Source: an uncultured Acetatifactor sp. (GTDB taxonomy: Bacteria > Bacillota > Clostridia > Lachnospirales > Lachnospiraceae). From it: a DNA stretch of 64,000 nt. Made by a program: the position numbers and the translations under genes. The stretch covers positions 34,093 through 98,092 of the forward strand of contig CAKRUB010000008.1 of the NCBI GenBank assembly GCA_934402375.1, read 5' to 3'. A model generated the notes under the pieces. That model was not told the DNA's origin. It saw nothing but the letters and a program-made list of their open reading frames with translations, and did no database searches. Positions 10,735 to 33,138 of the stretch are shown here, in pieces (within the stretch, counting starts at the first letter, position 1; every line of letters begins with the position of its first letter).

Positions 10735-10934
10735 AATTGCAAAACTCATACATTCCGGTAACAGTTGCGCAAGATGTACATGGCCACAAGCAGCGCACTC
10801 TGGAGCCGCCGGCGCTTAGTCTCCGTACTGTGGAGACTTATGCGTCCGTTGCGTGCGGAAGGTAGCGAAAGCGTGCCTGCGGTGGTCTGTGCATCTTGTA
10901 CAACGTGCCCTGTAAAAACATGAGTTTTGCAATT
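10735..10934. repeat. Palindromic structured element, copy 1 (core 10764-10904)
   Basis: The 141-nt core has end arms of about 17 bp (GTTGCGCAAGATGTACA against TGTGCATCTTGTACAAC). Inside are a perfect AGTCTCC/GGAGACT hairpin and a GGTAGC-GAAA-GC hairpin with a GNRA loop. Copies 2 (18851-18990) and 3 (32999-33138) share the core with paired substitutions in the stems. Only this copy is enclosed by a further perfect 15-bp inverted repeat, AATTGCAAAACTCAT (10735-10749) and its complement (10920-10934). It lies between two minus-strand genes. It could be a structured RNA, a MITE-like element or a processing site. Confidence 0.85.
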
Positions 10935-11001
10935 TCCCGATACCGTTTCAAAACTCTCTGCACTACTTTTTATTTCGGCTTGAACTGTCCTCCTCTTTAC
11001 C

Positions 11002-11883
11002 CTACCCGCAGCTCTCCCTGTACGCCATCTCCCAATACCGCTCGGGTATATCCGGCCAGTTGCACTCTCCGACCGCCTCCCGGCACAGCTCCATCGCCCT
11101 GAACAGCACATTTGAATGTCCATAATCCGGGAATGTATAACGTCCCCTTGCGGTCAGCAGCATTTCCGTCACCTTGCACCAGTACGGCGCCCTCTCCATC
11201 AGCCCCGAGACGGAAAGCTCCCTGATCACCCGCTCCCTGTCATAGTCGAGACTGATAAATTCCTCCCTCCATGCCTTTGTCTCCTCGTCGCCATGCAGGA
11301 TCAGAAACTGCGCCATACCCTGTCCTCCGATGGAAAGTCCGACAGAGCCGGGATTCAAAAGCAGCTTCCCCTTATACTCCTGCTTTCCCTGACGATGTGT
11401 ATGTCCGCACAGTATCAGTCCCACCTCCGTAGTTTCCAGAAGCCTTTCCACCCGCTCACTGCCCGGAGTAAGGGCCTCCGACACATGATCCGGTGAACCG
11501 TGGCAGAGCTGTAACGTCGGCATCGCCCCATACTGCAGCTTCATGGCAATCGGCATTTCCCCGAAAAAGTCCAGCTCCCTCCTCGTCAGCCGATGGTAGG
11601 CATAATAAAGTGCACCTGTCGTAGAGTCAAATTCCCGCCAACCACACTCGCCGCCTCTCGCATAGTTAAGCCAGTAATTTTCCTTATTTCCGCGAATAAA
11701 GGTACAGTCAAATTCCTCCCTGTACTCCTTCAGCAGCTCCATTGTCCTCTCCGGGTAAGCCATCTCCCCGATATAATCCCCCAGAAACAGGAATTTCCTT
11801 ATCCCTCTCTTCAGTGCAAACCGCATACAGGTCTCAAGCGCGACATAATTGCTGTGAATGTCTGCAAGTACAGCAATCTCCAT
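11002..11883 (-). CDS. Calcineurin-like metallophosphoesterase
   Basis: 293 residues of the binuclear-metal phosphoesterase fold. The metal-binding motifs appear in order: LADIHSN (DxH), FLGDYIG (GDxxG), RGNKENY (GNxE), CHGSPDH and ILCGHTHRQ (GHTH). It resembles the YfcE/MJ0936-type cytoplasmic phosphodiesterases, to which a range of phosphodiester substrates is attributed; the physiological substrate here is unknown. The ATG at 11883 is selected because GGAGGT, part of hairpin-RBS module copy b, precedes it. The longer frame upstream crosses that module and is rejected. The gene is divergent from the HerA-like ATPase gene. Confidence 0.88.
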   Translation of the reverse strand: MEIAVLADIHSNYVALETCMRFALKRGIRKFLFLGDYIGEMAYPERTMELLKEYREEFDCTFIRGNKENYWLNYARGGECGWREFDSTTGALYYAYHRLTRRELDFFGEMPIAMKLQYGAMPTLQLCHGSPDHVSEALTPGSERVERLLETTEVGLILCGHTHRQGKQEYKGKLLLNPGSVGLSIGGQGMAQFLILHGDEETKAWREEFISLDYDRERVIRELSVSGLMERAPYWCKVTEMLLTARGRYTFPDYGHSNVLFRAMELCREAVGECNWPDIPERYWEMAYRESCG

Positions 11884-11888
11884 ATCTA

Positions 11889-11932
11889 CCTCCATTTCTG
11901 CGCACGCTCTTTGCGCATGGCAAGTTTGTGTC
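11889..11932 (-). repeat. Hairpin-RBS leader module, copy b (phosphoesterase leader)
   Basis: On the minus strand this reads GACACAAACTTGCC, then ATGCGCA, a 7-nt loop, TGCGCAGAAATGGAGG, with the ATG start 5 nt later. It shares both the hairpin and the preceding GACACAAACT with the tex leader at 536-578. A short frame, MRKERAQKWR, fits inside it. Confidence 0.75.
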
Positions 11933-12035
11933 CGCCGCAGCGTCCGTTCGTTCCTGCAGACCATATTATAAGAAAAGTTTTAAGATTGCGCGCGCCGCTT
12001 TCTTAAGACATTCTTACGGAATCCGAAAAATAACC

Positions 12036-12064
12036 TTGTGCCACTTTCCGTAATCCACTATAAT
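12036..12064 (+). promoter_or_regulatory. Sigma-A type promoter for the HerA-like ATPase gene
   Basis: TTGTGC (12036-12041) and a perfect TATAAT (12059-12064) are separated by 17 nt, just before hairpin-RBS module copy c. Confidence 0.7.
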
Positions 12065-12080
12065 ATTCTTATCATCTTTA

Positions 12081-12117
12081 ACTCGCTATGCGCAAAGAAC
12101 GTGCGCAGAAATGGAGG
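12081..12117 (+). repeat. Hairpin-RBS leader module, copy c (HerA-like ATPase leader)
   Basis: ACTCGCTATGCGCA, a 7-nt loop and TGCGCAGAAATGGAGG are followed by the ATG at 12123. Transcription from 12059-12064 would start only about 10 nt before the hairpin, so the hairpin would sit near the 5' end of the mRNA. It faces away from copy b, which serves the divergent gene. Confidence 0.75.
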
Positions 12118-12122
12118 AAACT

Positions 12123-13697
12123 ATGTACTATAATGATAAAATCTGGATCGGAGAATCCGACGGTGAAAAAATCTGCATCCTGCCGAATATGGCAAACCGC
12201 CACGGTCTGATCGCCGGCGCTACCGGAACCGGTAAAACGATTACTTTAAAAGTTCTGGCAGAGTCCTTCAGCGATGCCGGCGTGCCGGTCTTCCTCGCGG
12301 ACGTCAAGGGCGACCTCGCGGGTATGTGCCGCCCCGGAAGAGACAGCGAGGATATGCAGAAGCGCATCGCCTCATTCGGTCTCGCCCAGTGCGGTTTTTC
12401 CTACCAGTCCTACCCCAGTGTCTTCTGGGATGTCTACGGCAGAATGGGAATCCCGCTGCGCACAACCATTTCCGAGATGGGGCCTCTGCTCCTCGGCAGA
12501 CTGATGAACCTGACCCCGGCTCAGACCGATGTGCTCAACGTCACCTTTAAAATTGCGGACGACAACAATCTGCTGCTGATCGATACAAAGGATCTGAAAT
12601 CCATGCTCCAGTACATCGGTGAAAACGCTGCCGATTTCAGCAATGACTATGGACATATCGCCAAGGCAAGCGCGACAACCATCATCCGCCATGTTGTTGC
12701 TCTGGAAGCGCAGGGCGCGCAGGAATTCTTCACAGAGCCTGCCCTGAACATTGCGGACTGGTTCACCACCGGCGCAGGTGGCAAGGGAGCCATCAATATT
12801 CTGGACTGCCGCGAGCTGGTGAATGATCCGACCATGTACTCGCTCTTCCTGCTTTGGATGCTGGCAGAGCTTTTCGAGACGCTGCCGGAGGTCGGCGATC
12901 CCGCAAAGCCCCGCATGGTATTCTTCTTCGATGAAGCACATCTGCTCTTCAACAATGTCTCCAAAGCATTGCAGGAAAAGATTGAGCAGATCGTCAAGCT
13001 GATCCGCTCCCGCGGTGTCGGCATTTATTTCATCACGCAGGCGCCCAAGGACATTCCCGACGGCGTCCTCAGCCAGCTCGGCAATAAGATCCAGCATGCG
13101 CTGAGAGCCTACACGCCCGCCGATGAGAAGGCGATCAAGGCTGCTGCCGCATCCTTCCGCACCAATCCGGCATTCGATACCAAGACCGTGCTGTCCGAGC
13201 TTGGAACCGGCGAGGCATTGGTCTCCGTACTGGACGAAGCCGGAATCCCCACCGTGGTAAAACGCTGTAAGATCCTGCCCCCGCAGAGCCTCATGGGGCC
13301 GATCTCCGACGAGGAGAAAAAGCAGGAGGTGCTGATGAGCAATCTTTACCTGAAATATAAGGATGCCCACGATCCCGACAGCGCTTATGAATTCCTGCAA
13401 AGAAAGCATCTGGAGGATGAAGCCGCACTGGAACAGCAGAAGAAAGCCGCGGCGGACGAGAAGGCGGCTGCAAAAGAAAAAGCGGCTGCCGAAAAAGCCG
13501 CTTTGCGTGAAAAGGCAAAAAAAGACCGGGCAATCAAGTCCGGTATGAAGAGTGTTGCAAACAGTGCCGCGGGAACCATCGGACGCGAGGTCGGAAACAC
13601 CATCGGAAAATCCCTCGGAGGCTCCTTCGGCAAGAAGCTCGGCGGAAACGTAGGCGCCCAGCTCGGCAGAAGCATCCTCGGCACATTGTTCAAATAG
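12123..13697 (+). CDS. HerA/DUF853-type ATPase
   Basis: 524 residues of the HerA-FtsK ATPase superfamily, DUF853 branch. Walker A is AGATGTGKT near residue 37 and Walker B is MVFFFDEAHLLF near 262. DVKGDLAGM and SQLGNKIQHALRAYTPADEK are typical of this branch. After about residue 425 comes an Ala/Lys/Glu coiled coil, then a glycine-rich tail (GREVGNTIGKSLGGSFGKKL) that could contact membranes or assemble. The family is often called a bipolar DNA helicase, but its role is poorly defined. GGAGG from module copy c precedes the ATG at 12123. The 3' end overlaps the YolD gene by 8 nt, tail to tail. Confidence 0.88.
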   Translation: MYYNDKIWIGESDGEKICILPNMANRHGLIAGATGTGKTITLKVLAESFSDAGVPVFLADVKGDLAGMCRPGRDSEDMQKRIASFGLAQCGFSYQSYPSVFWDVYGRMGIPLRTTISEMGPLLLGRLMNLTPAQTDVLNVTFKIADDNNLLLIDTKDLKSMLQYIGENAADFSNDYGHIAKASATTIIRHVVALEAQGAQEFFTEPALNIADWFTTGAGGKGAINILDCRELVNDPTMYSLFLLWMLAELFETLPEVGDPAKPRMVFFFDEAHLLFNNVSKALQEKIEQIVKLIRSRGVGIYFITQAPKDIPDGVLSQLGNKIQHALRAYTPADEKAIKAAAASFRTNPAFDTKTVLSELGTGEALVSVLDEAGIPTVVKRCKILPPQSLMGPISDEEKKQEVLMSNLYLKYKDAHDPDSAYEFLQRKHLEDEAALEQQKKAAADEKAAAKEKAAAEKAALREKAKKDRAIKSGMKSVANSAAGTIGREVGNTIGKSLGGSFGKKLGGNVGAQLGRSILGTLFK

Positions 13698-14103
13698 TAC
13701 ACTGTAAAATATCCTCAGCCCTGACCATAGTTCCATCCGTAAAGAAGATCGCATGAGTGTACTCATCGATCTTCTTTACTTTGCCGGTGATCGTCACATA
13801 AGCGCCGCCATCCTTCCGCGCGTCCTTCTGAAAATAAGTTACGGTAATTTCAGGATGTGCTTCGCCACACTCCCTGATCTGCCGCAGCTTTTCATCCAGC
13901 TCCTCCCTGGCGTTCTCGTCCAGTTCAATGCGCTCCTCCGTCAGCCGGGCGCTCTCATCGATCGCGTCCTCATACCCCGTCAGCGCAGCAAAAGGCGAAA
14001 ACTGTGCCGCACGGTCTGCCAGAGACATCTGCGGATGGCTGGCGGAGACATGGTGCGGCAGCGCGATAATGTCCTCATATTCAAATATTCCGGCTTCCTT
14101 CAC
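13690..14103 (-). CDS. YolD-like protein
   Basis: 137 residues of the YolD-like family, recognised by SLADRAAQFSPFAALTGYED followed by a charged helix and a C-terminal beta-rich region. YolD-like genes commonly lie beside Y-family polymerase genes in Firmicutes and may regulate or assist translesion synthesis; the mechanism is not established. The start codon overlaps the stop of the polymerase gene (14100-14103), implying translational coupling and a shared operon. The protein is predicted to be soluble and cytoplasmic. Confidence 0.85.
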   Translation of the reverse strand: MKEAGIFEYEDIIALPHHVSASHPQMSLADRAAQFSPFAALTGYEDAIDESARLTEERIELDENAREELDEKLRQIRECGEAHPEITVTYFQKDARKDGGAYVTITGKVKKIDEYTHAIFFTDGTMVRAEDILQCTI

Positions 14104-15632
14104 GCCTTATGCCCTCCGATCTGATTGTTGCGCTCGATTGTCGTCGCGCCCTCCTGCAGATTCGTGCCCTTCAGAATAGCATTCTTCCCGTACTTCTTCT
14201 TCACTTCCAGCATCGCCTCCTGAAGTCTTCGCTCCTTTTGCAGACGCTTTTCTTCCTCTTCCCTCTCCCGATCTCGGACGCTGTAATCAGTGAAAAGCTC
14301 CAGTTGTTCAAAGCTCTCTGCCTTCTTCGCGTCCGCCTCATCCGTCAGGTGGTTCGCCGTGACCGTGACCCTGCGTACAAGCAGTCGCGGATCGACATGC
14401 TTCTCATACAACTCCATCATGGCATCGACAATGATCTGCGTCGAACTCGTCGGCATGGGCAGATTCGCCGTTCCCGCCGCATGCTTCGGCACGCTTCTGC
14501 CGTAGCGGTCAACGCTCACCTCTCCCTTATATGCCCTTCTGATCTCAGGCTTTTTCAGACTGTCCACGTCATAGCCGATCAGCAGGCATATCTGATCCGT
14601 CACAAGCTTCTTCTCCACGAGATCAAGCACAAGCAGATCTGTCATCTCCCGCACGATAATCTTCGCCTTTCCGAACTCATACGGACATTGCAAAACCTGC
14701 CCGGAGCTCATGGAGCTGCTCTCCGGCTTATATGCCTTGATAAGCTCTATCGTCGTCGGCTCCCAGCCCCACGCATGATCGATCAGAAGCTCTGCATTGA
14801 TCCCGAACATCCGGTACAGAAGCTCCTCGTTGTAATAATCCCGGTCGCCGCCAAGGGAACACCTGGCAACATCCCCCATAGTAAACAGTCCGACCTCCTC
14901 CAGCCGCTTCTGATACCCATGCCCGACCCGCCAGAAATCCGTCAGCGGTCTGTGCGTCCAAAGCACCCGTCGATAGCTCATCTCGTCCAGCTCCGCAATA
15001 CAGCAGCCGTTCCCGTCCGGCTCCACATGCTTAGCCATGATGTCCATCGCAACCTTTGCAAGATAAAGATTCGTGCCGATTCCGGCGGTTGCCGTGATGC
15101 CGGTCTCCGCAAGAACCTCCCCTGCCAGCTTCGCCGCAAGCTGCCTCGCCGTCATTCCATAGGTGTCAAGATACTGCGTCACATCCATAAACACCTCATC
15201 AATGGAATAGACATGAATGTCCTCCGGCGCAATATACCTGAGATAAATCTTGTAAATCTGCGTGCTCACCTGCATATAAAATGCCATCCTCGGCGGGGCG
15301 GTGATATAATCCACCTCCAGCTCCGGGTGACAGGCAAGCTCCGGCGCCTGATTCGACAAGCCCGTAAATCTCCCGCCCGGCGCGTGGAGTCTCCTGCCCG
15401 CATTCACCTCACGGACCTTCTGCACCACCTCAAACAGCCTCGCCCTGCCGGGAATCCCATATGCCTTCAGCGACGGCGAAACCGCCAGGCAGATCGTCTT
15501 CTCCGTGCGCGAGCGGTCAGCCACGACCAGATTCGTTGTCAGTGGGTCTAATTCCCTCGCCCTGCACTCCACGGAGGCATAGAAGGATTTCAGATCGATG
15601 GCAATATAAGTACGCTGCTTAAATTTCTGCAT
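14100..15632 (-). CDS. Y-family DNA polymerase (UvrX/DinB type)
   Basis: 510 residues. The catalytic carboxylates are visible in IAIDLKSFYASVECR and YSIDEVFMDVTQYL, with the palm motif TATAGIGTNLYLAKVAMDI and the helix-hairpin-helix and little-finger regions after about residue 200. Y-family enzymes copy damaged DNA with low fidelity. The C-terminal charged tail (about 460-490) is extended relative to DinB, as in UvrX-type proteins. The ATG at 15632 lies inside the end of the upstream isomerase gene (14-nt overlap), and the gene is coupled to the YolD gene. No clear LexA box (GAAC-N4-GTTC) was found upstream, so SOS control is not evident. Confidence 0.9.
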   Translation of the reverse strand: MQKFKQRTYIAIDLKSFYASVECRARELDPLTTNLVVADRSRTEKTICLAVSPSLKAYGIPGRARLFEVVQKVREVNAGRRLHAPGGRFTGLSNQAPELACHPELEVDYITAPPRMAFYMQVSTQIYKIYLRYIAPEDIHVYSIDEVFMDVTQYLDTYGMTARQLAAKLAGEVLAETGITATAGIGTNLYLAKVAMDIMAKHVEPDGNGCCIAELDEMSYRRVLWTHRPLTDFWRVGHGYQKRLEEVGLFTMGDVARCSLGGDRDYYNEELLYRMFGINAELLIDHAWGWEPTTIELIKAYKPESSSMSSGQVLQCPYEFGKAKIIVREMTDLLVLDLVEKKLVTDQICLLIGYDVDSLKKPEIRRAYKGEVSVDRYGRSVPKHAAGTANLPMPTSSTQIIVDAMMELYEKHVDPRLLVRRVTVTANHLTDEADAKKAESFEQLELFTDYSVRDREREEEEKRLQKERRLQEAMLEVKKKYGKNAILKGTNLQEGATTIERNNQIGGHKA

Positions 15633-16455
15633 ATCTCTGTAAAATGAAGTTCTTCGCCGCCTGATTGTTCTCCGGCTTTGTGTCCTCCAGCGTCGCATGG
15701 ATAAACGGCTTTCTCGCCTTCATGAACTTTAAGATCTCCGTGTAATCCATCTCTCCCATGCCGCAGCCCGCCGCGATCATTTTTCCGTTTTCCACTCTGA
15801 AGTCCTTCAGGTGTACCATGGCAATGTCCTCTCCCAGAAGCTCGATCGCCTCGCGGAACACCGCCTCCCTGTCACGGTAATTCGCAACATCCAGAAGGTT
15901 CACCGGATCGAAGATGATCTGAAGATTCGGCGAAGCAATCTCGTCGAGCACGCGCCGCGCCCGGACGGGATTACACACAATATGTCTGAAAACAGGCTCG
16001 ATTGCAAAGACAACACCCATCTTCTCAGCATAGGCAACGATGGGCTTTAACCGCTCGATAAAGAGCTGCAGTGCCTCCTCCGTACCGCACTCCGGCGTGA
16101 AGGCATACGCTGTGTTCGGCGCTCCCGTCTCCGTCCCGACCACACCGCAGCCCAGCCACGACGCGAAGCGGATGTGCGCCATATAGCGGTGCACCGTTTT
16201 TTCCAGCTCCTTCTCATCCGGCGTTGCGAGATTCAGGTAGCAGCCCAGCACCGCAATATCCACATGATTCCGCGCAAACACATCCCGGATATACATGGCA
16301 AGTCCCGGAGTCAGCGTCTCGTCCGTCGTCGGAAACTCCGTGATGAACTTGGAGAGCGCAAGATGTCCACAGGCAAACCCCGCCTCATGCACCCTCGCAA
16401 CTCTCTCCTCAAAAGGAAGCTTCTCCATATCATGTAACCTGATCCCCAACTGCAT
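15619..16455 (-). CDS. Sugar phosphate isomerase/epimerase-like TIM barrel protein
   Basis: 278 residues of the AP-endonuclease-2/xylose-isomerase-like barrel. Metal-binding acids are apparent in VFAIEPVFRHIV, LQIIFDPVNLLD, MVHLKDFRVENGKM and PFIHATLEDTKPEN. Such proteins interconvert sugars or polyols; the substrate cannot be read from sequence. Its position 21 nt after the GH28 gene suggests a role in uronate or pectin-sugar use. The ATG at 16455 gives the usual short MQLGIRLHD opening and has GGAG close by; TTG/GTG codons a few residues earlier are also possible. Confidence 0.82.
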   Translation of the reverse strand: MQLGIRLHDMEKLPFEERVARVHEAGFACGHLALSKFITEFPTTDETLTPGLAMYIRDVFARNHVDIAVLGCYLNLATPDEKELEKTVHRYMAHIRFASWLGCGVVGTETGAPNTAYAFTPECGTEEALQLFIERLKPIVAYAEKMGVVFAIEPVFRHIVCNPVRARRVLDEIASPNLQIIFDPVNLLDVANYRDREAVFREAIELLGEDIAMVHLKDFRVENGKMIAAGCGMGEMDYTEILKFMKARKPFIHATLEDTKPENNQAAKNFILQRYAEI

Positions 16456-16476
16456 TGTCTCCACCAAACCTTTCCG

Positions 16477-18564
16477 TTATTTCTGTATCTCCGAGCTGTC
16501 CTCTACCCTGTCCACGTCGACCAGCTCATAAGCCTCGCCGTCCTGCCCTTCAATCGTGACATGATCCAGCACAAGTCTGGCAACGTTCCGGGCAAAAATG
16601 CCCTTCCTGCTGCACTTCGGCACACCCTCCGACATGGCAGGGACATCACACTTCGGCTCTGCCGCGTAGCTGACCGAGATGTTCCGCATCACGATCTCCT
16701 CTATCTTCTGCTCCGGCAGTCCGTCAAAGTAGGCTGCCGCCACATGGCAGTTTGTACATTTCATGTTCTCAAATACCAGCTTCTTGATCGAGGGCGTCCT
16801 GTCATCCACCGGATAAGGCTCCCGGGATTGCACATAGGGCGTCTTCCCGTCGGGATCGCAGAAATAGAATGCATTGACAACGAGCGGTGTCATGACATGA
16901 TCCAGCTCAAGGTTCCGGAAAATGATATTGCTTAAAACAGCATCCTTTCCGCGCCCGCGTCTAGTCTTGATCCTGAGTCCCCTGTCCGTATGACTGAAAA
17001 TACAGTCCTCCACCGTAAGGTTCAAAATTCCGCCCGCCATCTCGCTTCCGAGTGTCACCGCGCCATGTCCGTTTTCCATCAGGCACTGGCGGATCATGAT
17101 ATTCTCCGACGGGGTCTTATAGGTCTTTCCCATATAGATCTTGCCGCTCTTTACCGCGATGCAGTCATCTCCCAGCGAAAAACGCACCCCGAGAATCTCA
17201 ACGTTCCTGCAGGACTCCGGATCGCAGCCGTCCGTGTTGGGCGAATCTGCGGGATTCTGGATATTCAGTCCGATGAAATGCAGGTTGTCGCTGAAATAGG
17301 GATGCAGCGTCCATGCCGGCGAGTTGCAGCAGGTCACTCCCTGCAAGGTGATGTTTCTGCAATGATTGACAAAGAACAGCCTCGGGCGGAATGCCTCCTT
17401 ATAGCCCTTTGGATTCTTCCACCAGTCCTCGCGTGAAGCATTTCCGTTGATTGTTCCCTCGCCGTAGATCACGACGTCCTCCACATCAATACCGCAGATA
17501 ATGCCGGTATAGGAAGGCAGGGGATTTCCCTCCCAGCTGCCAAGATTATACTGATCTCTCTCGTCATAGCTCTCGATCAGCCCGGGCAGCACCGGAAAGC
17601 GCTCCTTCTCCGTGAATGCCCGGAGCTCCGCGCCCTTTGCGAGCTCTATTTTCGTGTGGCTCTTCAGGAAAAGACTGGTAATCCTGTACACACCCGCCGG
17701 AATCAGCACGCGGCTGTCCTCCGGACATGCGAGAATCGCCGCCTGGATAAACGGTGTGTCATCCTGAATGCCATCTCCCTTTGCCCCGAAACGCCGGACA
17801 TCCAGCGTCACAAACTCATAATCCGTATGGAAGAAAAGCTCTCCGCATTTTTCCTCTACGTCAAGGATTTCCACCTGATAATCCGTGTCCGGCCGCAGTC
17901 CGTAGAGCGCCGTGATCGTCCTCTCTGTCACAAACTCCTCAATCCCATTAACCGTAACACGATAGGGCTTCTTTGTAAAGTATTTCCCGCCGTCCGCAAT
18001 TTCAATCACTGCGCTGCGTGCCGTCTTGCAGACAAGGCTTAAGGCTCCCACCGCGCGCTTTCCTTCCGCGGCTCTCTCCTCCACGCTTCGCCGTTCATAC
18101 TTCTCGCCCTGCAAAATATGAAGCTCCACCGCGTGCGCCACAAGCTGCCACAGAGTCTCCTCGTCCGCCTCCTGCACAGCTTCCGTCCCGGCTACGGCAA
18201 AGCTCCCGCTCTCCCTGTATCTGGCATACATTCCGCCCCACACCTGCTTGAACATATCGGTCAGCCCGCGGTAATACTCATATACCTGCGGACTGATATT
18301 GTCTATCGTCCCGAGCAGCGCTTTCAGGAAAAACACCTCATTTTCAAAGCTGTCCCGGCATTCCAGTTCCCGCCACAGTATCTGCAGCTGCGCCAGAATG
18401 TCCGGGTAGCCCGCCTTCTTGTTATATTCTGTCTCAAATGCAGCATAGGCAGGGTAAATATACCCTGCCGCCTTAAATACATTTTCGTCCAGTTGCTGAA
18501 TTTCAAACAGACCGTCAGCCCTTCTCGGCAGCTTCCTGATCTGCTCACCCTGTAACTGTTCCAT
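16477..18564 (-). CDS. GH28 polygalacturonase with an N-terminal helical domain and FN3-like linker
   Basis: 695 residues. All GH28 active-site motifs are present after residue 240: PNTDGCDPES (NTD), SLGDDCIAVKSG (DD), NGHGAVTLGSEM (GHG) and RGLRIKTRRGRGG (RIK), predicting release of galacturonate from polygalacturonate ends. Residues 1 to about 165 are helical, and IYPAYAAFETEYNKKAGYPD resembles a piece of the GH105/GH88 barrel. A fibronectin-III-like stretch (LYGLRPDTDYQVEI) precedes the beta-helix. No signal peptide is present. The ATG at 18564 follows GGAGATAAGG from the last unit of a seven-copy leader array. It lies downstream of uxaB-uxaA. Confidence 0.9.
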   Translation of the reverse strand: MEQLQGEQIRKLPRRADGLFEIQQLDENVFKAAGYIYPAYAAFETEYNKKAGYPDILAQLQILWRELECRDSFENEVFFLKALLGTIDNISPQVYEYYRGLTDMFKQVWGGMYARYRESGSFAVAGTEAVQEADEETLWQLVAHAVELHILQGEKYERRSVEERAAEGKRAVGALSLVCKTARSAVIEIADGGKYFTKKPYRVTVNGIEEFVTERTITALYGLRPDTDYQVEILDVEEKCGELFFHTDYEFVTLDVRRFGAKGDGIQDDTPFIQAAILACPEDSRVLIPAGVYRITSLFLKSHTKIELAKGAELRAFTEKERFPVLPGLIESYDERDQYNLGSWEGNPLPSYTGIICGIDVEDVVIYGEGTINGNASREDWWKNPKGYKEAFRPRLFFVNHCRNITLQGVTCCNSPAWTLHPYFSDNLHFIGLNIQNPADSPNTDGCDPESCRNVEILGVRFSLGDDCIAVKSGKIYMGKTYKTPSENIMIRQCLMENGHGAVTLGSEMAGGILNLTVEDCIFSHTDRGLRIKTRRGRGKDAVLSNIIFRNLELDHVMTPLVVNAFYFCDPDGKTPYVQSREPYPVDDRTPSIKKLVFENMKCTNCHVAAAYFDGLPEQKIEEIVMRNISVSYAAEPKCDVPAMSEGVPKCSRKGIFARNVARLVLDHVTIEGQDGEAYELVDVDRVEDSSEIQK

Positions 18565-18573
18565 CCTTATCTC

Positions 18574-18805
18574 CATTTCTGCGCATATTTTTGCACATAG
18601 CGAATTTCATTTCTGTGCACGTTTTGCACATAGCGAGTTTCATTTCTGCGTACGTTTTGCACATAGCGAATTTCATTTCTGTGCACGTTTTGCACATAGC
18701 GAGTTTCATTTCTGCGTACGTTTTGCACATAGCGAGTTTCATTTCTGTGCACGTTTTGCACATAGCGAGTTTCATTTCTGTGCACGTTTTGCACATAGCG
18801 AGTTT
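18574..18805 (-). repeat. Seven tandem hairpin-RBS leader modules before the GH28 gene
   Basis: Units begin (plus-strand CATTTCT) at 18574, 18608, 18641, 18674, 18707, 18740 and 18773; six are 33 bp and the gene-proximal one is 34 bp. On the minus strand most read ACTCGCTATGTGCA, a 5-nt loop, then TGCACAGAAATGAA, so TGTGCA pairs with TGCACA. The single-copy leaders elsewhere have TGCGCA paired with TGCGCA, a compensated change. Two inner units carry TACGCA. Only the last unit has a ribosome site (GGAGATAAGG). The repeats keep an 83-codon frame open from 18796 to 18545. Confidence 0.9.
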
Positions 18806-18850
18806 CTCTTCTCTTTAAATTAAGCACGCAGTTCCACCCCGCAAGCATCA

Positions 18851-18990
18851 GTTGTGCAGAATGCACCTGACCACAAGCAGTGCACTCTGGAGCCGCCGGC
18901 ACTTAGCTGGCGTACTGTGACAGCTTATGTGCCGTTGCGTGCGGAAGGTAGCGAAAGCGTGCCTGCGGTGGTCTGTGCATCCTGCGCAAC
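18851..18990. repeat. Palindromic structured element, copy 2
   Basis: 140 nt. The end arms are GTTGTGCAGAATGCAC and GTGCATCCTGCGCAAC. The internal hairpin reads AGCTG...CAGCT, where copies 1 and 3 have AGTCTCC...GGAGACT, so several pairs changed on both sides. The GGTAGC-GAAA-GC hairpin is conserved. It lies between the end of uxaA and the leader array of the GH28 gene, in the same orientation as the other copies. Confidence 0.85.
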
Positions 18991-24760: not shown

Positions 24761-24947
24761 CGTATGAGAGAAAAGTTTTAGAGGAATATTTCATTCCCAA
24801 AGGAATATTACCTCATATTTGCTTTGGGTTCAAGTGTTTTCTAGTCAAAAAAGTAAAAAATCACTGTTTTTTTGTGTCCGGGCACGTTAAACGCAGTATT
24901 TAAGCAGGAAATATACCGAAAAAAGGATGTAAGAGGTTTCAAAGAAT

Positions 24948-26833: not shown

Positions 26834-26863
26834 TACTTTATCCTCCTTAATACATTATTTTGC

Positions 26864-27790
26864 TTAAGAATTTTTCTTTTTCAGCTCCTCAGCCACAACT
26901 GCAGCCAGTGCGATCGAATTTACCTTCGTCTCGAAGGTGTCGGAACGGCTGGTCAGGATAACGGGAACCTTTGTGCCGGTCAGGATACAACCGTTCTTTA
27001 CGCCGGGCACCATATGTACAATCGCCTTGTAGACAAGGTTTCCTGCGTGGATGTCGGGGAAGAGAAGCACATCCGCATCTCCCTGGATCTTTCTGTCGGT
27101 CGCTGCCTTATGCTTTGCAGCCTCCGCATCAATCGCCAGATCAAGGGAAAGAGGCCCGTCTACGATGCAGTCCGTGATCTGACCCTCTTCGCACATCTTT
27201 GTCAACTCTGCCGCTTCCACGGTGACAGGCATCTTCGGGTTTACCACCTCGACTGCTGCCAGAGGAGCCACCTTGGGATTCTCGATGCCGCAGGCATTGC
27301 ATACCGGAATCGTATTCCTGATAATGTTCACCTTATCCTCCAGTGTCGGATAGGTCATGAACGCAACATCCGTCAGGAAAAGAAGTCTGTCGATGCAGGG
27401 AATGTCAAATACACACACATGTGACAGCGATCCGCCGGTTCTCAGTCCGACTTCCTTGTCCAGCACGCTCTTTAAGAAGTTCTTAGAGTCGATCAGACCC
27501 TTCATGTACATATCTACTTCGCCGTCATGTGCCAGCTTTACCGCCTTGAGGGATGCCTGTATCATATCCGGCTCGTCGATGATTCTGTAACCGGTCAGAT
27601 CCATATCCATCGATGCCGCGATCTCCCTGATCTTAGCCTCATCACCTACCAGAACCGCCTCCGCGATGCCCTGTGCCTTCGCCTCCCTTACAGCCTCCAG
27701 CACTGCGGAATCCTGCGCTGCCGCTACGGCGATCTTCTTCATGCTGTAGCTCTTTACCTTTGAGATCACATGTTCAAAACCCTGCTTCAT
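26864..27790 (-). CDS. ptb: Phosphate butyryltransferase
   Basis: 308 residues of the phosphate acetyl/butyryltransferase family. It converts butyryl-CoA and phosphate to butyryl phosphate for Buk. Recognisable stretches are KKIAVAAAQDSAVLEAVREA, YMKGLIDSKNFLKSVLDKEV, the LTDVAFMTYPTLEDKVNII block and DVLLFPDIHAGNLVYKAIVH. The ATG at 27790 has AAGGAAG upstream; the longer open frame adds an unrelated 33 residues and is rejected. It is followed directly by buk. Confidence 0.95.
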   Translation of the reverse strand: MKQGFEHVISKVKSYSMKKIAVAAAQDSAVLEAVREAKAQGIAEAVLVGDEAKIREIAASMDMDLTGYRIIDEPDMIQASLKAVKLAHDGEVDMYMKGLIDSKNFLKSVLDKEVGLRTGGSLSHVCVFDIPCIDRLLFLTDVAFMTYPTLEDKVNIIRNTIPVCNACGIENPKVAPLAAVEVVNPKMPVTVEAAELTKMCEEGQITDCIVDGPLSLDLAIDAEAAKHKAATDRKIQGDADVLLFPDIHAGNLVYKAIVHMVPGVKNGCILTGTKVPVILTSRSDTFETKVNSIALAAVVAEELKKKNS

Positions 27791-27909
27791 TTGTCGTTGC
27801 TTCCTTTCTTCTTCGCTGCCGGAGTTCTCCGACAGACTTTTCTCAACATTTTTCCATGCAGTCCGGCAACACTCACAGACCACATACAATCGTTAAAATA
27901 ATAACACGC

Positions 27910-28482
27910 TCAACCGCAAATTGCAAGACTTGTACCCACAAGAATGCCCAATACCGCCGATAAAATGATAATGAGAATCGGATGCACCTTTTTCAGCGCC
28001 AGCACAAACATGAGAATAAAAATAGCGGTGGGAACCAAAAGTTCCGGCACGGAAATGTTTTGCATAGAAAAACCATCCGGGAAAAACACTGTCGCTCCCG
28101 TTGAAAGCAGCGCCGCACCAATCAGCCCGATCACCGCAGGCTTCAGCCCGGACATACAGCCCTTCACAATCCTGCTGTTCCGAAACCGGTCAAAGCATTT
28201 CGCAACGATCAGCACGATGACAAAGGACGGCAGGACGACGCCGAGCGTCGCGCAGAACGCCCCGAAGATGCCTCCCGCCTCACGCCCGACATAGGTCGCC
28301 ATGTTGACGGCAAAAGGACCCGGCGTGCTCTCGCTGACCGCGATAAAGTCTATGATCTCCTCCATGTCCAGCCAGCCGTGCTTTATGACCTGTTCTTCGA
28401 CAAGCGGCAGCATGGCATAGCCTCCTCCGAAGGTAAATGCCCCGATCTCCAGAAAGACGAGAAACAGCTGTAAATAAATCAT
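27910..28482 (-). CDS. Chromate transporter, half-size CHR protein (second of pair)
   Basis: 190 residues, one six-helix CHR domain with the family signature FTFGGGYAMLPLVEEQV and SESTPGPFAVNMATYVG. Split ChrA pairs work as heterodimers, and in gut bacteria their physiological anion is uncertain; chromate efflux is the family name rather than a demonstrated role. The ATG at 28482 follows GGAGGAACAGG. It overlaps the stop of the upstream half by 4 nt (ATGA), so the two halves are translationally coupled. Confidence 0.9.
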   Translation of the reverse strand: MIYLQLFLVFLEIGAFTFGGGYAMLPLVEEQVIKHGWLDMEEIIDFIAVSESTPGPFAVNMATYVGREAGGIFGAFCATLGVVLPSFVIVLIVAKCFDRFRNSRIVKGCMSGLKPAVIGLIGAALLSTGATVFFPDGFSMQNISVPELLVPTAIFILMFVLALKKVHPILIIILSAVLGILVGTSLAICG

Positions 28483-29024
28483 TCCCTGTTCCTCCTCTCT
28501 GCGAGCAGTGAGGCGGCAAGACCCGCAGCCGCGCAGCACACGAGGACAAGCAGCACATTGACCTTCAAAAATGCCACGCAGACAAACGCAGCCGCCATAA
28601 TAAGATAGGATGCGACCGACTTCGGGCACTGCCTGTACATGGAGAGCAGCGCCTTTGCGATCAGTGCGAGCACTCCCGCCCGGATACCGTAAAAGGCATA
28701 CTGTACTGCTTTCAGCTCCTGAAACTGCCGCAGGACGAAGGATACCGCCAGAATGATCAGAAACGAGGGCAGAACCACCCCCACCGTTGCCAGAAATGCT
28801 CCCCAGAAGCCCGCCACGCGGTAGCCCACAAAGGTTGCCGCATTGATGGCAATCGGGCCGGGCGTGGATTCCGAGATAGCAATGACCTCAAGAATATCCT
28901 CATCTGATAGCCATTTTCTCTTTTCGGAGATTTCCTTCTGGATCAGCGGGATCATGGCATAGCCGCCGCCAAAGGTAAACGCTCCGATCTTCAGAAAGGT
29001 GAAAAACAGCGTCCGTCTATTCAT
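28479..29024 (-). CDS. Chromate transporter, half-size CHR protein (first of pair)
   Basis: 181 residues with the same CHR signature (IGAFTFGGGYAMIPLIQKEI; SESTPGPIAINAATFVGYRV) and about six membrane segments. It pairs with the downstream half at 27910-28482, as in other Firmicutes with split ChrA. The ATG at 29024 has GAGGGAG upstream. The start overlaps the end of the HAD gene by 8 nt, so HAD phosphatase, ChrA1 and ChrA2 form one transcription unit driven from 29780-29808. Confidence 0.9.
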   Translation of the reverse strand: MNRRTLFFTFLKIGAFTFGGGYAMIPLIQKEISEKRKWLSDEDILEVIAISESTPGPIAINAATFVGYRVAGFWGAFLATVGVVLPSFLIILAVSFVLRQFQELKAVQYAFYGIRAGVLALIAKALLSMYRQCPKSVASYLIMAAAFVCVAFLKVNVLLVLVCCAAAGLAASLLAERRNRE

Positions 29025-29694
29025 TCCGCGCTCCCTCACCGGCATTGCATTCCTGCATGATCCCGTAGACCTCGTCAAGACCCTGTGCCGTCCGGTAGAG
29101 ATACTTTTTCAGCTCCTCGTCCGGCGGCGTCTGATCAGGCACCATCACGACCCTGCAGCCCGCCCGATAAGCCGACAGCACGCCGTTCGGCGAGTCCTCG
29201 ACCGCAATGCATTCCTCCGGCTTAAATGCCAGCTGCTCACAGGCATAGAGATAGATGTCGGGAGAGGGCTTCCCCTCCTTTACCATCGTCGCGCTGATGA
29301 TCCGGTCAAAGCAGTCCTCCATGCCGGTCAGCCGCAGATATTTCCGGGTTCGCTCGGGATCTGTCGCCGTCGCAATCGCCGTCGTGACGCCGCTGTCCCG
29401 GAGCTTCCGCACAAGCTCCAGCGCGCCCGGCTTTCTCTGTATGCCCTCCCTGTCAAGGCACTCCTCCATCATTTCCTTGCGCTTGTCCCTCACGGCATAA
29501 TAGTCCAGTTCCTCCCCGAACCATTCCTTCAACTGCTTTGGCGCAAAGGGTCTGCCGAGACTGCGCATCGTCAGTGCCTGCCCATCTGTCATATGGTAGC
29601 CAAATTCCGCCAGCGCCTTCGGCCAGAAAATCCGATAATATTTTTCCGTGTCAATCAATGTTCCGTCAAGATCAAAGATAACAGCCTTTATCAT
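29017..29694 (-). CDS. HAD-superfamily sugar-phosphate phosphatase or phosphoglucomutase-like protein
   Basis: 225 residues. Motif I VIFDLDGTLIDTE (nucleophile Asp), motif II TAIATATD, the Lys of motif III in VKEGKPSPDIYLYA and motif IV AVEDSPNGVLSA define a HAD phosphatase with a small helical cap. This subgroup includes beta-phosphoglucomutase and 2-deoxyglucose-6-phosphate phosphatases, so the substrate cannot be fixed. The ATG at 29694 follows GGGAAGGG; the upstream extension is not conserved coding. A promoter lies at 29780-29808. Confidence 0.88.
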   Translation of the reverse strand: MIKAVIFDLDGTLIDTEKYYRIFWPKALAEFGYHMTDGQALTMRSLGRPFAPKQLKEWFGEELDYYAVRDKRKEMMEECLDREGIQRKPGALELVRKLRDSGVTTAIATATDPERTRKYLRLTGMEDCFDRIISATMVKEGKPSPDIYLYACEQLAFKPEECIAVEDSPNGVLSAYRAGCRVVMVPDQTPPDEELKKYLYRTAQGLDEVYGIMQECNAGEGARNE

Positions 29695-29779
29695 GTCTTG
29701 TCCCTTCCCGCGGCATCTCGTGAATGTGTACTTCTCCCGGTCTTTGCCGGGCGCTGCCGCGTCTGCACTCTCTTCGCCC

Positions 29780-29808
29780 ATTATAGCCGCAAACGCGTTG
29801 CAGTGCAA
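29780..29808 (-). promoter_or_regulatory. Sigma-A type promoter for HAD-chromate transporter genes
   Basis: On the minus strand, TTGCAC (29803-29808) and a perfect TATAAT (29780-29785) are separated by 17 nt. Confidence 0.65.
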
Positions 29809-29858
29809 CGGGATATGCTCTCTAGGCTTCTCCGGATGACTATTTTTGTTTTGCATAA

Positions 29859-30161
29859 TTATTTTTGCTTTGCATAGGTGAAGGAATCCGGCAGGATCAG
29901 ACAAGCCAGAAAATAGAGATGCGGTGCATAATTGCCTGAGCACTGCGTCATGACATAATCAAATGTGTGAAGCTCACAGCCGAGCGCCTGACGGATGTCG
30001 GAAACCAATGCAAATACTGCCACCCGGAGAACCGGTGTAAAGAGAAGCATCCTCCGGGAATAGACCATCTTTCCACGCAGCAGCATAACCAGCTGTATCA
30101 GGAAGATAAGGATCATGAACGGGTACACCACATAAAAGGCGGACCCGGTAAAGCAGAACAT
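29859..30161 (-). CDS. Small hypothetical membrane protein, coupled to the gene upstream
   Basis: 100 residues with hydrophobic segments near 8-29 (AFYVVYPFMILIFLIQLVML) and 38-55, then a region ending in QCSGNYAPHLYFLACLILPD. No family is recognised. Its ATG at 30161 follows the stop codon of the 54-residue frame by one base (TAGGATG), a layout typical of translational coupling, which explains the lack of its own good ribosome site. Alternatively the pair could be one gene split by a frameshift; comparison with related genomes would settle this. Confidence 0.5.
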   Translation of the reverse strand: MFCFTGSAFYVVYPFMILIFLIQLVMLLRGKMVYSRRMLLFTPVLRVAVFALVSDIRQALGCELHTFDYVMTQCSGNYAPHLYFLACLILPDSFTYAKQK

Positions 30162-30162
30162 C

Positions 30163-30327
30163 CTACTGCAAAAGCGGAAGCAAGCCTTCGTCTTCCGGCA
30201 CTCTTTCTTCCTCTGTACCCTCCTCCTGCTCCCGGCAGGGGTATATGAACAATCTTTCTTCCTCTGTACCCTCTTCCTGCATTAGACAAGGGTATGGAAG
30301 CAATTTTTCTGCTACCATACCCTTCAT
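30163..30327 (-). CDS. 54-residue peptide with two YPC-QEEGTEEER repeats
   Basis: A short reading frame beginning ATG at 30327 with AAAGGA 6 nt upstream. After MKGMVAEKLL it contains a 17-residue tandem duplication, LPYPCLMQEEGTEEER and FIYPCREQEEGTEEER, then an acidic tail ending LLPLLQ. Each repeat has one cysteine. There is no membrane segment. The DNA shows matching direct repeats of about 45 bp. It lies between a 47-residue membrane peptide gene and a 100-residue membrane protein gene. The function is unknown; a signalling or modified peptide is a speculative possibility. Confidence 0.5.
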   Translation of the reverse strand: MKGMVAEKLLPYPCLMQEEGTEEERLFIYPCREQEEGTEEERVPEDEGLLPLLQ

Positions 30328-30390
30328 GATTTTCCTTTATTAGTGCTCCGATATATGATACCGTCATTTCCGACGCAATGAAACCGGATT

Positions 30391-30534
30391 CTACCGAAGC
30401 AATTCTCCCATATAGCTCAAAGCACTACGCACATTATCACCCGCATCCCTGATTGCCTGCGAAATAAGGATGCCACAGATAATAATAGCCACTGCAATGA
30501 TGATCATGCCAATGAGTCGTTGCCAGTCCTTCAT
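30391..30534 (-). CDS. 47-residue single-pass membrane peptide
   Basis: A small gene with strong expression signals: promoter at 30565-30593 and a perfect GAAGGAGG 7 nt before the ATG at 30534. The product starts MKDWQRL, has one membrane helix (IGMIIIAVAIIICGILISQA) and ends in a polar helix with several charges. Many bacterial proteins of this form bind and adjust larger membrane partners; no partner can be named here. It is the first of three small genes read in the same direction toward 29859. Confidence 0.7.
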   Translation of the reverse strand: MKDWQRLIGMIIIAVAIIICGILISQAIRDAGDNVRSALSYMGELLR

Positions 30535-30564
30535 AAAAAATCCTCCTTCGATTTACTCATCGAC

Positions 30565-30593
30565 ATTGTAGCACATTCCCTATCTCGCTTCAA
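30565..30593 (-). promoter_or_regulatory. Sigma-A type promoter for the small-gene group
   Basis: On the minus strand, TTGAAG (30588-30593) and TACAAT (30565-30570) are separated by 17 nt, about 30 nt before the 47-residue gene. Confidence 0.65.
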
Positions 30594-30723
30594 TCTTATT
30601 TCATAAAGGCAAATCCAGCTGAAGCCTCCCCACAACGGTTCCATTCTGCACCAAAGATTATACTCTGACCACATTCCTCACTCAGCACATGACTTTACAA
30701 CACATAAGTCGCTGTCGGTTTCC

Positions 30724-32901
30724 TCACTCAATCACACGGCTTCCCCAGAGCGTGATCTGATCCTTGTCGCCAAGCGCCGTGAAAACCATGGTATTCAGCT
30801 TCGTATTTTCGACAAGCATCTCCAGCATAACACCGCTGTACTTCTCCCCGTTCATGGAAAGCGTGATATAGGATGTGCCCGGCTCCAGCGTCCAGCTTCC
30901 AGTATACTCGCCGGTAATCGTGCCGTTCTCGTGCAAGGTGATCAGATCGGGCTGCTTTGCCTCGAGCGCCTTATAGTCAATATCCAGCTCATGCAGGATG
31001 ATCTCGTAATCCCCCGCAACCTCAGAGACGGAATAGCCGCCCTTTTTCAGCGCCTCCCCCGTCGTCTGGTAGGGCGCTGCCACAAGCCAGCCCTCCTTCG
31101 TCTGGAAGAGCTGATGTACTTTTACAAAATGTCCCTCCGTTCCGTTGGTCGTTCTGGTATGGTAGACAATGTAAGCTCTGCCGTCATCATCCACAAACGC
31201 CGAGTTGTGCCCTTGTGCCACCTGCCCATTATTAAAATTCCGCCACTTATAGCCACCCATCAGGCGCACGCCGACAGACTGGTTATAGTTGAAAACATAT
31301 TTGTCATAGAAAGCCGAGTTTCCGAGCGCATCCACATAATCTCCGTCAGGACGCTCCGAGCGGAATACGCGGACATTATATCCTCCCGCCGCCTCAAGAT
31401 TTCCGTAGGAGATAAAGAGATAATAGTAATCCCCGATCTTCTGCACATAGGATGCCTCACCGGACACATAAGTGCCGCCAGCGATTTTCTTCCCGAAATA
31501 GGCATCGGAATGAATGTCTGTGTCATAGCTCACGCTGTAGTCGCGCAGCCCTGTCTCCTCGTCCAGCGCCAGCATGAAAATTCCACCCGACCAGGAACCG
31601 TATGTCATCCAGAGATTTCCGTCGTCATCATAGAATACACAGGGATCAATACAGTTCGGCCACATATCGCCCCACTTCCTGTTATCCACACCGTTCTTCA
31701 CATAGCGCTCGGGAATCTCCTCCGTCCCCAGAACCTGCGGCGCATCCGTCTCACCGAAATCAGCCGCATTGAAGCCGCCATAGACCACTGTTCCGACATA
31801 AGTATACGGTCCGGTCACACTGTCTGCGGTGAGCATGACAATGTTGGACTTCCAGTCATCACCGTTTGCGCTCAGATACACACAATACTTCTCCAGCACA
31901 GGATTGTAAATGATGTCCGGCGCCCAGAGATAACCGAGCCAGCTTCCGGCGCTGTCATCGTCATTCCATGCCCTGACCTCGTCCCTCGTCTCCTGCGAAT
32001 AGCCGTCCTGAATCACACTGTCAAGGCTGACCCAGTCATAGAGATTCTCACTGCTTCCTCCGGTGATATGCGTACCGATAATATAATAGGTGCCGTCAAA
32101 ATCCTTAAATATGGACGGATCATGACAGGTGATTCGCTTATACTGCATCCTGTCCTCATAGTTGATTTCCCATAACTTCTGTGTCACTTCCAGTTTCATC
32201 ACGGCGCGGATCATAACCTCCTGTCCTGCATATTCAAACCTAACATAGGGGCGCAGAATAATCTCCTCTCCGCCAGCCGCCTGTACGGGAAACGCCTCCC
32301 CGAGCAGGCAGACCGTCAGCAAAAGTGCAGCCACACCCTTTCCCTTTTTCTTTTTAATCAGCAGAGCCATGCCAAGTCCGCCCACGATTACCACTGCCGC
32401 CGCTGCAGCAAAAATGACAGCGACGCTCCTGCCATCAGAAGCCTTTCCGAAAATTTCCTCGTCACCGACCAGCGTGCCATTTAAAGTGACACTCTCTCCG
32501 GCAGCAATGTCAGGAAGCGTATAAGGTCTGGAATCCTCCGCCGCGGCGATCAGTCCCTCCGTATTACTGTAGGTGAACTCGGTTCCCTTAATGTCCCACA
32601 GCGTTTTTCCGTTCTCCACCCGGATCGTGTAATGAATTTCTTCGCCGGCGCGGTAGGATGTCTTATCCGTTGTAAGAGTGACCGTGATGCCATCCTCCGA
32701 GGTGCTGTTGACTGCGCCGGTCATCTCCATTTCCGCTGTATCTGCCGTCTCCGCTGTCCCCGCAGCATCCGCCTCTGTTGTACCGCCAGCTGCCTCAGCC
32801 TTCGCCCTCTCCGGCACAGCCGCTGCCGCCACCAGAACCGCCAGCACGCACGCTGCCGCCACCAGCCCTCTTCTCCACTTTCCATACATTCTTTTCTTCA
32901 T
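30724..32901 (-). CDS. Cell-surface GH43 endo-arabinanase-like enzyme
   Basis: 725 residues. A signal segment (about 12-34) is followed by a beta domain (TVTLTTDKTSYRAGEEIHYT) and then, unusually, a membrane segment with a KKKKGKG stop (about 165-195) and a second signal-like segment ending FPVQAAGG. The catalytic five-blade propeller starts near 245: CHDPSIFKDFDGTYYIIGTH (base Asp), YLWAPDIIYNP, MWPNCIDPCVFYDDDGN, SGEASYVQKIGDYYY (acid Glu) and VAQGHNSAFVDDDG are GH43 arabinanase features. A C-terminal beta domain follows. It probably cuts alpha-1,5-arabinan at the cell surface. The ATG at 32901 follows GAGGTG. Confidence 0.87.
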   Translation of the reverse strand: MKKRMYGKWRRGLVAAACVLAVLVAAAAVPERAKAEAAGGTTEADAAGTAETADTAEMEMTGAVNSTSEDGITVTLTTDKTSYRAGEEIHYTIRVENGKTLWDIKGTEFTYSNTEGLIAAAEDSRPYTLPDIAAGESVTLNGTLVGDEEIFGKASDGRSVAVIFAAAAAVVIVGGLGMALLIKKKKGKGVAALLLTVCLLGEAFPVQAAGGEEIILRPYVRFEYAGQEVMIRAVMKLEVTQKLWEINYEDRMQYKRITCHDPSIFKDFDGTYYIIGTHITGGSSENLYDWVSLDSVIQDGYSQETRDEVRAWNDDDSAGSWLGYLWAPDIIYNPVLEKYCVYLSANGDDWKSNIVMLTADSVTGPYTYVGTVVYGGFNAADFGETDAPQVLGTEEIPERYVKNGVDNRKWGDMWPNCIDPCVFYDDDGNLWMTYGSWSGGIFMLALDEETGLRDYSVSYDTDIHSDAYFGKKIAGGTYVSGEASYVQKIGDYYYLFISYGNLEAAGGYNVRVFRSERPDGDYVDALGNSAFYDKYVFNYNQSVGVRLMGGYKWRNFNNGQVAQGHNSAFVDDDGRAYIVYHTRTTNGTEGHFVKVHQLFQTKEGWLVAAPYQTTGEALKKGGYSVSEVAGDYEIILHELDIDYKALEAKQPDLITLHENGTITGEYTGSWTLEPGTSYITLSMNGEKYSGVMLEMLVENTKLNTMVFTALGDKDQITLWGSRVIE

Positions 32902-32918
32902 ATTACACCTCATGTTTC

Positions 32919-32960
32919 ATGTTACAGTTGTACAACACCACTCGCCACATCCTACTACCC
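32919..32960. repeat. Apparent empty copy of the palindromic element
   Basis: CATGTTACAGTTG followed directly by TACAAC and then CACTCGCC matches the left and right flanks of element copy 3 (CATGTTACAGTTG... and ...CAACGTCACTCGCC), with the 125-130-nt interior missing. The junction is the palindrome GTTGTACAAC (32927-32936). It lies 60-70 nt from the full copy. Confidence 0.65.
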
Positions 32961-32998
32961 TCAACTTTCGGTGATTGCACCCCTTATTCCATGTTACA

Positions 32999-33138
32999 GT
33001 TGTGCGGGATGCACATGACCACAAGCAGTGCACTCTGGAGCCGCCGGCGCTTAGTCTCCGTACTTTGGAGACTTATGCACCGCTGCGTGCGGAAGGTAGC
33101 GAGAGCGTGCCTGCGGTGGTCTGTGCATTCCACGCAAC
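32999..33138. repeat. Palindromic structured element, copy 3
   Basis: 140 nt. The end arms are GTTGTGCGGGATGCACA and TGTGCATTCCACGCAAC. The internal hairpin AGTCTCC/GGAGACT is identical to copy 1 with one loop change. The short hairpin has a GAGA loop in place of GAAA, which keeps the GNRA rule. It lies between two GH43 genes, in the same orientation as the other copies relative to the flanking minus-strand genes. Confidence 0.85.

Follow-up and report, generated by a model that had tools for sequence, protein, structure and literature searches.

Dispersed palindromic elements with a conserved three-way-junction head in Lachnospiraceae genomes and the case for their mobility

A stretch of 64,000 nucleotides from an uncultured Acetatifactor sp. 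(contig CAKRUB010000008.1; hereafter the window, meaning the whole stretch) holds three copies of a palindromic element of about 140 nt, which belongs to a large and, it seems, undescribed family. The reading we favour, with moderate confidence, is that the copies are non-autonomous, selfish mobile elements of Lachnospiraceae, similar to repetitive extragenic palindromic (REP) elements and miniature inverted-repeat transposable elements (MITEs), with a folded head as the mobility signal. Each copy would be a hairpin with a basal stem (P1) of ~20–22 bp that is free in sequence, topped by a conserved three-way junction with an arm (P2) and a GNRA side hairpin. An IS1182-like DDE transposase would move the copies of one clade in trans, other machinery would move the remaining copies, and head sequence would be swapped between copies by gene conversion. 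The head would be kept because propagation depends on the folded strand (RNA or single-stranded DNA), and not because each copy benefits the host. Mobility can be seen in the clade whose copies carry terminal inverted repeats (TIRs); elsewhere, we infer it from copy number, dispersal and doublets. The head appears to be the mobility signal, as it is the part common to both forms, and none of the headless TIR pieces seen in one genome (G005) has spread.

With the three window copies as query, nhmmer picked up divergent relatives in loci chosen solely for their uxaA gene. A covariance model (R1) was built from nine sequences with the three-way-junction structure. It matched in nine of the ten genomes behind the uxaA-derived loci (64, 26, 16, at least 150, 72, 18, 1, 0, 17 and 2 matches), in 91 of 200 genomes of one bacterial family, apparently Lachnospiraceae (E ≤1e-3; best 19 candidates per genome), in 20 of 31 genomes of one genus (E ≤1e-6) and in 14 of 28 further genomes reached via named loci (E ≤1e-5). 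The four sets share a few genomes. Copies per genome ranged from one to hundreds, these counts being lower bounds (the best 150, 19 or 125 candidates per genome were scored, depending on the set). The tallies of placement, loops, pairing, flanks and doublets given below leave out hits that are shorter than 85–95 nt, truncated by a contig end or flanked by repeats. In the densest genome (G004), 66 copies were counted in 0.4 Mb, which corresponds to roughly 500 copies in 3.3 Mb, given an even spread. Cultured carriers, with names as recorded, included Brotaphodocola catenula (41 matches), Falcatimonas sp. MSJ-15 (34) and Schaedlerella arabinosiphila (3). The initial annotation of the window had expected many further copies, and the covariance-model search bore this out for related genomes, with up to a few hundred per genome.

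That annotation had also reported no match to a known RNA family. Rfam 15 likewise gave none over the copies: there was no hit at gathering thresholds for the window copies, and none at E up to 5 for copy 1. The best overlaps were well below threshold (Clostridiales-1, 24 bits with a cut-off of 48; MIR408, 22.2 bits with a cut-off of 64). A literature search, mainly in papers free of subscription, found no description of the element family. Exact core patterns had zero matches in genome contigs and viral contigs because the sequence of the element is too free, and blastn of phages and plasmids also had zero matches. A looser pattern returned four stretches of contigs filed as viral; in two of them, the model recognised a divergent head, at L227:1666-1799 and L230:2584-2717 (52.6 bits each).

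The conserved part of the element is a three-way junction at which stem P1 meets the long arm P2 and a side hairpin of two pairs with a GNRA loop. P1 was kept in length, with a median of 20, 21 and 22 Watson–Crick pairs in sets of 41, 22 and 11 copies, but not in sequence, which differs among genomes and, within G004, among copies. The P2 strands are CGUCGGYACUUAG and CUUAUGUACCGUUACG-like, with a conserved internal loop (UUAG/UUAU). The side hairpin has the form GC-GNRA-GC. When loop positions 2 and 3 were left free, the pattern matched 121 of 131 distinct copies (10 unmatched), and position 3 was A or G in all 121: 66 copies had GAAA, 25 GAGA, 14 GCAA, 9 GGGA and 7 GGAA. The GNRA pattern was fitted by 21 of 22 copies outside the model set. 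The GNRA rule, first proposed from the change of GAAA to GAGA among the window copies, a change that we found as described, is supported by these counts.

The stems covary, as had been claimed from the window copies (copies 1 and 3 carry AGTCTCC/GGAGACT, copy 2 AGCTG/CAGCT; both confirmed). Among 41 distinct rows, two-sided changes were found in 26 of 29 modelled pairs, compared with 19.6 after shuffling. The covariation score was 0.564, against 0.172 (sd 0.011) for shuffled alignments and at most 0.118 with partners slid; since the alignment was fitted to the structure of the model and its rows are related, these scores are not probabilities. In the window, the three copies with their flanks aligned with a mean column identity of 86%. 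On the + strand, the folding energy was -75.3 kcal/mol (z -5.40) for copy 1, -73.9 kcal/mol (z -4.86) for copy 2 and -78.7 kcal/mol (z -6.12) for copy 3, and none of 200 shuffles each was as good. The - strand folded well, too (z: -4.43, -5.08 and -5.16), as a palindrome should.

Three further observations concern the fold and its edges. At L211, L212, L213 and L219 (all G005), the P2 apex was swapped for a longer extra hairpin, meaning that the tip of the head tolerates inserts. The idea that P1 is a guide copied from elsewhere was rejected: the longest matches of 66 arm 18-mers in ~0.4 Mb of the same genome were 10–13 nt, against 9–14 nt for shuffled arms. A 3' tail CGTSAC as a general feature was dropped as clade-bound; CGTSMC followed the 3' arm in 9 of 11 G235 copies and in 2 of 41 and 3 of 22 copies elsewhere (shuffled: 0, 0 and 3).

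The main rival to mobility is a function as a structured RNA of benefit to the host, in which the GNRA strand, alone or within untranslated regions, stabilises or processes transcripts and the copies are selected one by one. The covariation and the purine at position 3 of the loop on one strand fit such an RNA, and the purine rule favours RNA over DNA. DNA hairpins such as GCGAAAGC are likewise very stable. The pair counts of P1 do not settle the matter. G-U pairs were rare, and on the GNRA strand of P1 their ratio to A-C was 22:5 in a diverse set (A5) and 48:13 in G005, in favour of RNA, but 10:17 in G004 and 4:6 in an independent set, where a G-U bias is missing. As the excess of one set was absent from the next, it was dropped as a basis for an RNA reading.

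The copies are intergenic. In G004, 36 of 63 had their 3' side towards a stop codon (median distance 91 bp) and the other 27 towards a start codon (median 196 bp); the 5' side distances differed little (297 vs 322 bp). The closeness to stop codons would suit a host RNA. The position antisense to and 3' of a gene, noted for the window, applied to all three copies there but was no rule in the dense genome G004 with its 36 of 63, and antisense placement is at most a tendency. No promoter-like excess was seen upstream of the copies, nor an excess of T-runs after the hairpin: at least six T in eight positions followed it on the + strand in 12 of 66 copies of G004, 16 of 54 of the diverse set, 1 of 26 of G005, 2 of 30 of G225 and 0 of 11 of G235, and on the - strand in 24 of 66 (G004) and 9 of 54 (diverse set). 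Neither a promoter nor an intrinsic terminator belonging to the element is thus supported. Moreover, 109 of the 200 sampled family genomes had no match under strict filters with the best 19 candidates per genome. The lack of either excess and the genomes with no match count against a host RNA, which we regard as unlikely. The earlier statement that selection acts on RNA structure stands with respect to the fold, through covariation and the GNRA rule; for a host RNA it is not clear.

In one clade (G005 type), the element sits within a ~200-bp MITE with TIRs. Copies of G005 were bounded by the TAGRCRWTTGCRAAAC TIR, found at 123 sites compared with 0 for the reversed control. Direct repeats of 10–15 nt were readable at the TIR ends in at least 9 of 20 fetched stretches (L207, L208, L212, L214, L216, L218, L221 with one mismatch, L222 and L225), and the target duplications of this clade were mostly 10–11 bp long. 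An automatic search found words of at least 9 nt common to both flanks, for the most part where the TIRs end, in 15 of 29 copies from G005, versus 14% of mispaired flanks. Both MITE features, TIRs and target duplications, were present in the G005 and G225 type, and such a form speaks against a host-beneficial RNA.

A TIR search of viral contigs gave eight sites, one of which (L233) lies 141 bp before a transposase open reading frame (ORF). Another contig (L247) encodes a protein 72% identical to the L233 transposase and has the TIR at both ends of an insertion sequence (IS) of ~1.77 kb. In G002, a transposase fragment with 48% identity to that of L233 lies directly against the TIR. Ends of the MITE type are in common with an IS at L247, L233 and L239. 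The IS protein matches DUF772; DDE_Tnp_1 was below the curated cut-off, and the IS1182 match is distant (69.1 bits, cut-off 270). The initial annotation had taken a known transposon end or an Rfam family as arguments against its structured RNA; transposon ends are carried by the element of one clade, and Rfam gave no match.

The TIRs, the target duplications, the empty site described below and the ends in common with an IS would also suit an ordinary MITE with IS1182-type ends, in which the palindromic interior is unimportant and the shared head reflects common descent only. Headless TIR pieces do exist. However, the head also occurs in genomes without the TAGRCRWTTGCRAAAC TIR, and two-sided pair changes with a kept GNRA loop are not expected from neutral descent; we therefore consider an ordinary MITE rather improbable. 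All seven headless TIR pieces of G005, partly picked for short TIR spacing, had different interiors, meaning that no headless form seen in this genome has spread.

Copies occurred alone or in doublets, defined as close neighbours with starts within ~1.1 kb. All 14 doublets of G004, all 11 of G235 and all 13 of G056 were divergent (-,+; 38 of 38 together), as were four of six in G225; G005 was mixed, with one each of three types. At other loci, 10 of 12 were divergent, duplicates included (L204 equals L127, L283 equals a G225 doublet, and L081 lies in G005). The genes flanking doublets had all orientations (12 --, 9 ++, 6 +- and 2 -+; 29 rows, 27 distinct). Most doublets of G225 and G235 unite two head types (by reading). 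An ORF of at least 60 aa lay between the members in 6 of 29 rows. We rejected the idea of an autonomous element whose genes lie between a pair of heads, as ten scanned ORFs from between neighbouring copies included no recurrent transposase: eight matched Pfam (GNAT twice, flavin reductase, DapB, a PBECR4 phage-type nuclease, pectinacetylesterase, DUF3796 and cyclophilin) and two had no match.

Doublets in one orientation, the joining of two head types and the intergenic position recall REP/REPIN elements moved by a Y1 (HUH) transposase of the REP-associated tyrosine transposase (RAYT) kind, which would act on the hairpin as single-stranded DNA. According to the available part of PMC3733652, REPs pair in a preferred orientation and form heterodimers, and no transposase is known for the CGTC type; REP/REPIN elements are given as GTAG- or CGTC-tagged hairpins of 20–40 bp (PMC3733652; PMC3116915, both in the parts available). 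Like these, our family forms many intergenic palindromes per genome, and doublets had a preferred orientation in G004, G235 and G056, though not in G005. Unlike REP/REPIN as portrayed in that part of PMC3733652, the present element measures ~140–180 nt, not 20–40 bp, and has a three-way junction, a GNRA side hairpin and a P1 of free sequence. By the CGTSMC counts given above, a tag of the CGTC kind is no general feature of the family either. A Y1_Tnp match was absent from 6 of 12 carrier genomes, including G225 (at least 124 element matches) and G235 (44); these are drafts, from which the gene could be missing. RAYT/Y1 is not supported as the general mover, and we consider this explanation very improbable. 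Neither clostridi nor lachnospir appears as a word in the available text of PMC3733652.

G225 and G235 are syntenic sister species with long blocks of 92–97% identity. A G225 copy beside uxaA was absent from G235, which reads straight through, i.e. a clean empty site. Its flanks, GTGTGAAATA and ATATAAAATA, resemble a 10-bp duplication with three differences (by eye). A conserved copy beside uxaA had been considered, as window copy 2 and the G225 copy occupy a common gap, but the latter is an insertion missing in the sister. The two are probably independent.

Orthologous copies showed signs of decay and exchange. In pairs A (L298/L275), B (L301/L344; the G235 copy is incomplete) and D (L297/L309), P2 differences were clustered and two-sided, e.g. 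TTAC/GTAA vs CAGC/GCTG. Exchange between copies would give such differences, as would other two-sided processes. P1 changed in a mixed manner. By eye, the P1 of A had four mismatches and one mismatch in 29; in D, two pairs had changed in both arms and a third in one arm only. In doublet C, one copy has a fully paired P1 (22/22) in G235 and four one-sided changes in G225, which argues against a host RNA. In the other copy of C, two P1 pairs were changed two-sidedly, two G-U pairs occur in G225 and P1 differs by one pair in length in both arms; this coordinated change is what a host RNA would show. The mixed changes mean that not every copy keeps P1 strictly, and its arms may be copied from each other. 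A bolder version of the mobile reading, which we put forward only tentatively, is a new class of bacterial mobile element whose inherited signal would be the fold, a three-way-junction head with a GNRA loop. Host or IS machinery would read this head in the form of RNA or single-stranded DNA, and P1 below it would be fixed in length but free in sequence, with arms that may be re-copied from one another. A class of this kind would account for the two-sided changes, in which wobble intermediates are few, as well as for the matching one-pair length change in both arms of an orthologous copy. A second palindromic repeat family, with arms GGAAATGTTCAATATAGACAAAA and many matches in G235, was noted at L302:16395-16504 (G225).

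Several results weigh against a mobile, IS-driven element. The densest genome, G004, had no recognisable TIR, its flank-word search was near control (14 of 73 vs 10.9%), and movement there is deduced indirectly. A search of the main TIR genome, G005, yielded no transposase relative. PF05598 matched in only three of eight carriers, all four PF05598 loci of carriers were without the TIR, and so were L240 and L241, two of the three loci that the search for transposase relatives returned. L247 had no clear target duplication. Two other differences between G225 and G235 were rejected as empty sites: G235 keeps TIR remnants, and they look like deletions (one of these two G225 copies has GTTACTATATT on both sides). 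The joint change of both P1 arms in doublet C would also result from selection on each copy. The partial choice of headless pieces by TIR spacing counts here as well.

Compared with MITEs in the available part of PMC10969869, the element has TIRs, target duplications, no ORF and IS-like ends in one clade; it differs by a conserved, covarying head across genomes whose outer ends differ and by one-orientation doublets outside the TIR clade. With the IS1182-like IS (L233, L247), whose transposase is DUF772/DDE_Tnp_1-like, it has the G005-type TIR in common, but it encodes nothing, and the IS1182 match is distant. The BOX, RUP and SPRITE repeats of pneumococcus, as presented in the part of PMC3049150 at hand, are likewise small, structured, interspersed Firmicute repeats that are probably parasitic and slow-moving; they are nearly restricted to pneumococcus and S. 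mitis, whereas the present family occurs in many genera and is set apart by description.

If this is correct, a major group of gut bacteria, cultured carriers included, would carry an unlisted repeat family whose numbers reach a few hundred per genome. One conserved fold would join REP-like doublets with IS-borne MITEs, two kinds of repeat that are normally treated separately. The family would also be a test case for whether strong covariation is proof of RNA or can be produced at the DNA level by mobile palindromes, a question that bears on calling new structured RNAs from alignments. As copies were often found at contig ends, the family bears on assemblies, too.

The positions of the three window copies agree with the initial annotation, and all are on the + strand (Table 1).

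Table 1. Copies of the element and associated features in the window
Feature	Position	Strand	Basis
Copy 1, P1 arms and three-way-junction head	10764..10904	+	R1 match 10780-10889, 102.6 bits
GC-GAAA-GC hairpin, copy 1	10865..10872	+	sequence; loop tabulation over 131 copies
Degenerate terminal inverted repeats flanking copy 1, TAAATAATTGCAAAAC ... GTTTTGCAATTTCCCG	10730..10939	+	by eye
Copy 2, P1 arms and head	18851..18990	+	R1 match 18867-18975, 104.7 bits
GC-GAAA-GC hairpin, copy 2	18951..18958	+	sequence
Copy 3, P1 arms and head	32999..33138	+	R1 match 33015-33123, 108.3 bits
GC-GAGA-GC hairpin, copy 3	33099..33106	+	sequence
Probable headless remnant near copy 3	32918..32948	+	by eye; repeat D11 in window repeat listing

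By eye, the degenerate inverted repeats around copy 1 resemble the TAGGCAATTGCGAAAC ends of relatives, and no target duplication was seen around them. TIRs with target duplications were not seen for copies 2 and 3. The remnant near copy 3 consists of the 5' flank CATGTTACAGTTGT fused to ACAAC and a copy-3-like tail (ACCACTCGCCAC), again by eye. The mechanical ORF listing agrees with the view that all three copies are intergenic, except that the minus-strand ORF 10070-10798, with its listed start, overlaps the edge of copy 1.

Every window copy is just 3' of a minus-strand ORF: copy 1 is 97 bp from the stop of a metallophosphatase ORF, copy 2 is 36 bp 3' of uxaA and copy 3 is 22 bp 3' of a GH43 gene. 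The pectin-use genes of the window comprise pectinesterase, GH28, GH43 and uxaA. The uxaA protein is at most 87% identical to records of uncultured Acetatifactor and other Lachnospiraceae. Genes 85, 71 and 82% identical to the window uxaA were found in bins titled Gastranaerophilales (L004), Alistipes (L048) and Muribaculum (L078), titles that may be wrong.

Other repeats were also present. Seven tandem 33-bp units with a palindromic core TGTGCACGTTTTGCACA lie between GH28 and copy 2 (18574-18806). Single units related to them at 509-578, 11875-11932 and 12080-12143 represent another dispersed repeat. A 51-bp tandem repeat with 2.2 copies lies beside the GH43 gene (30198-30310).

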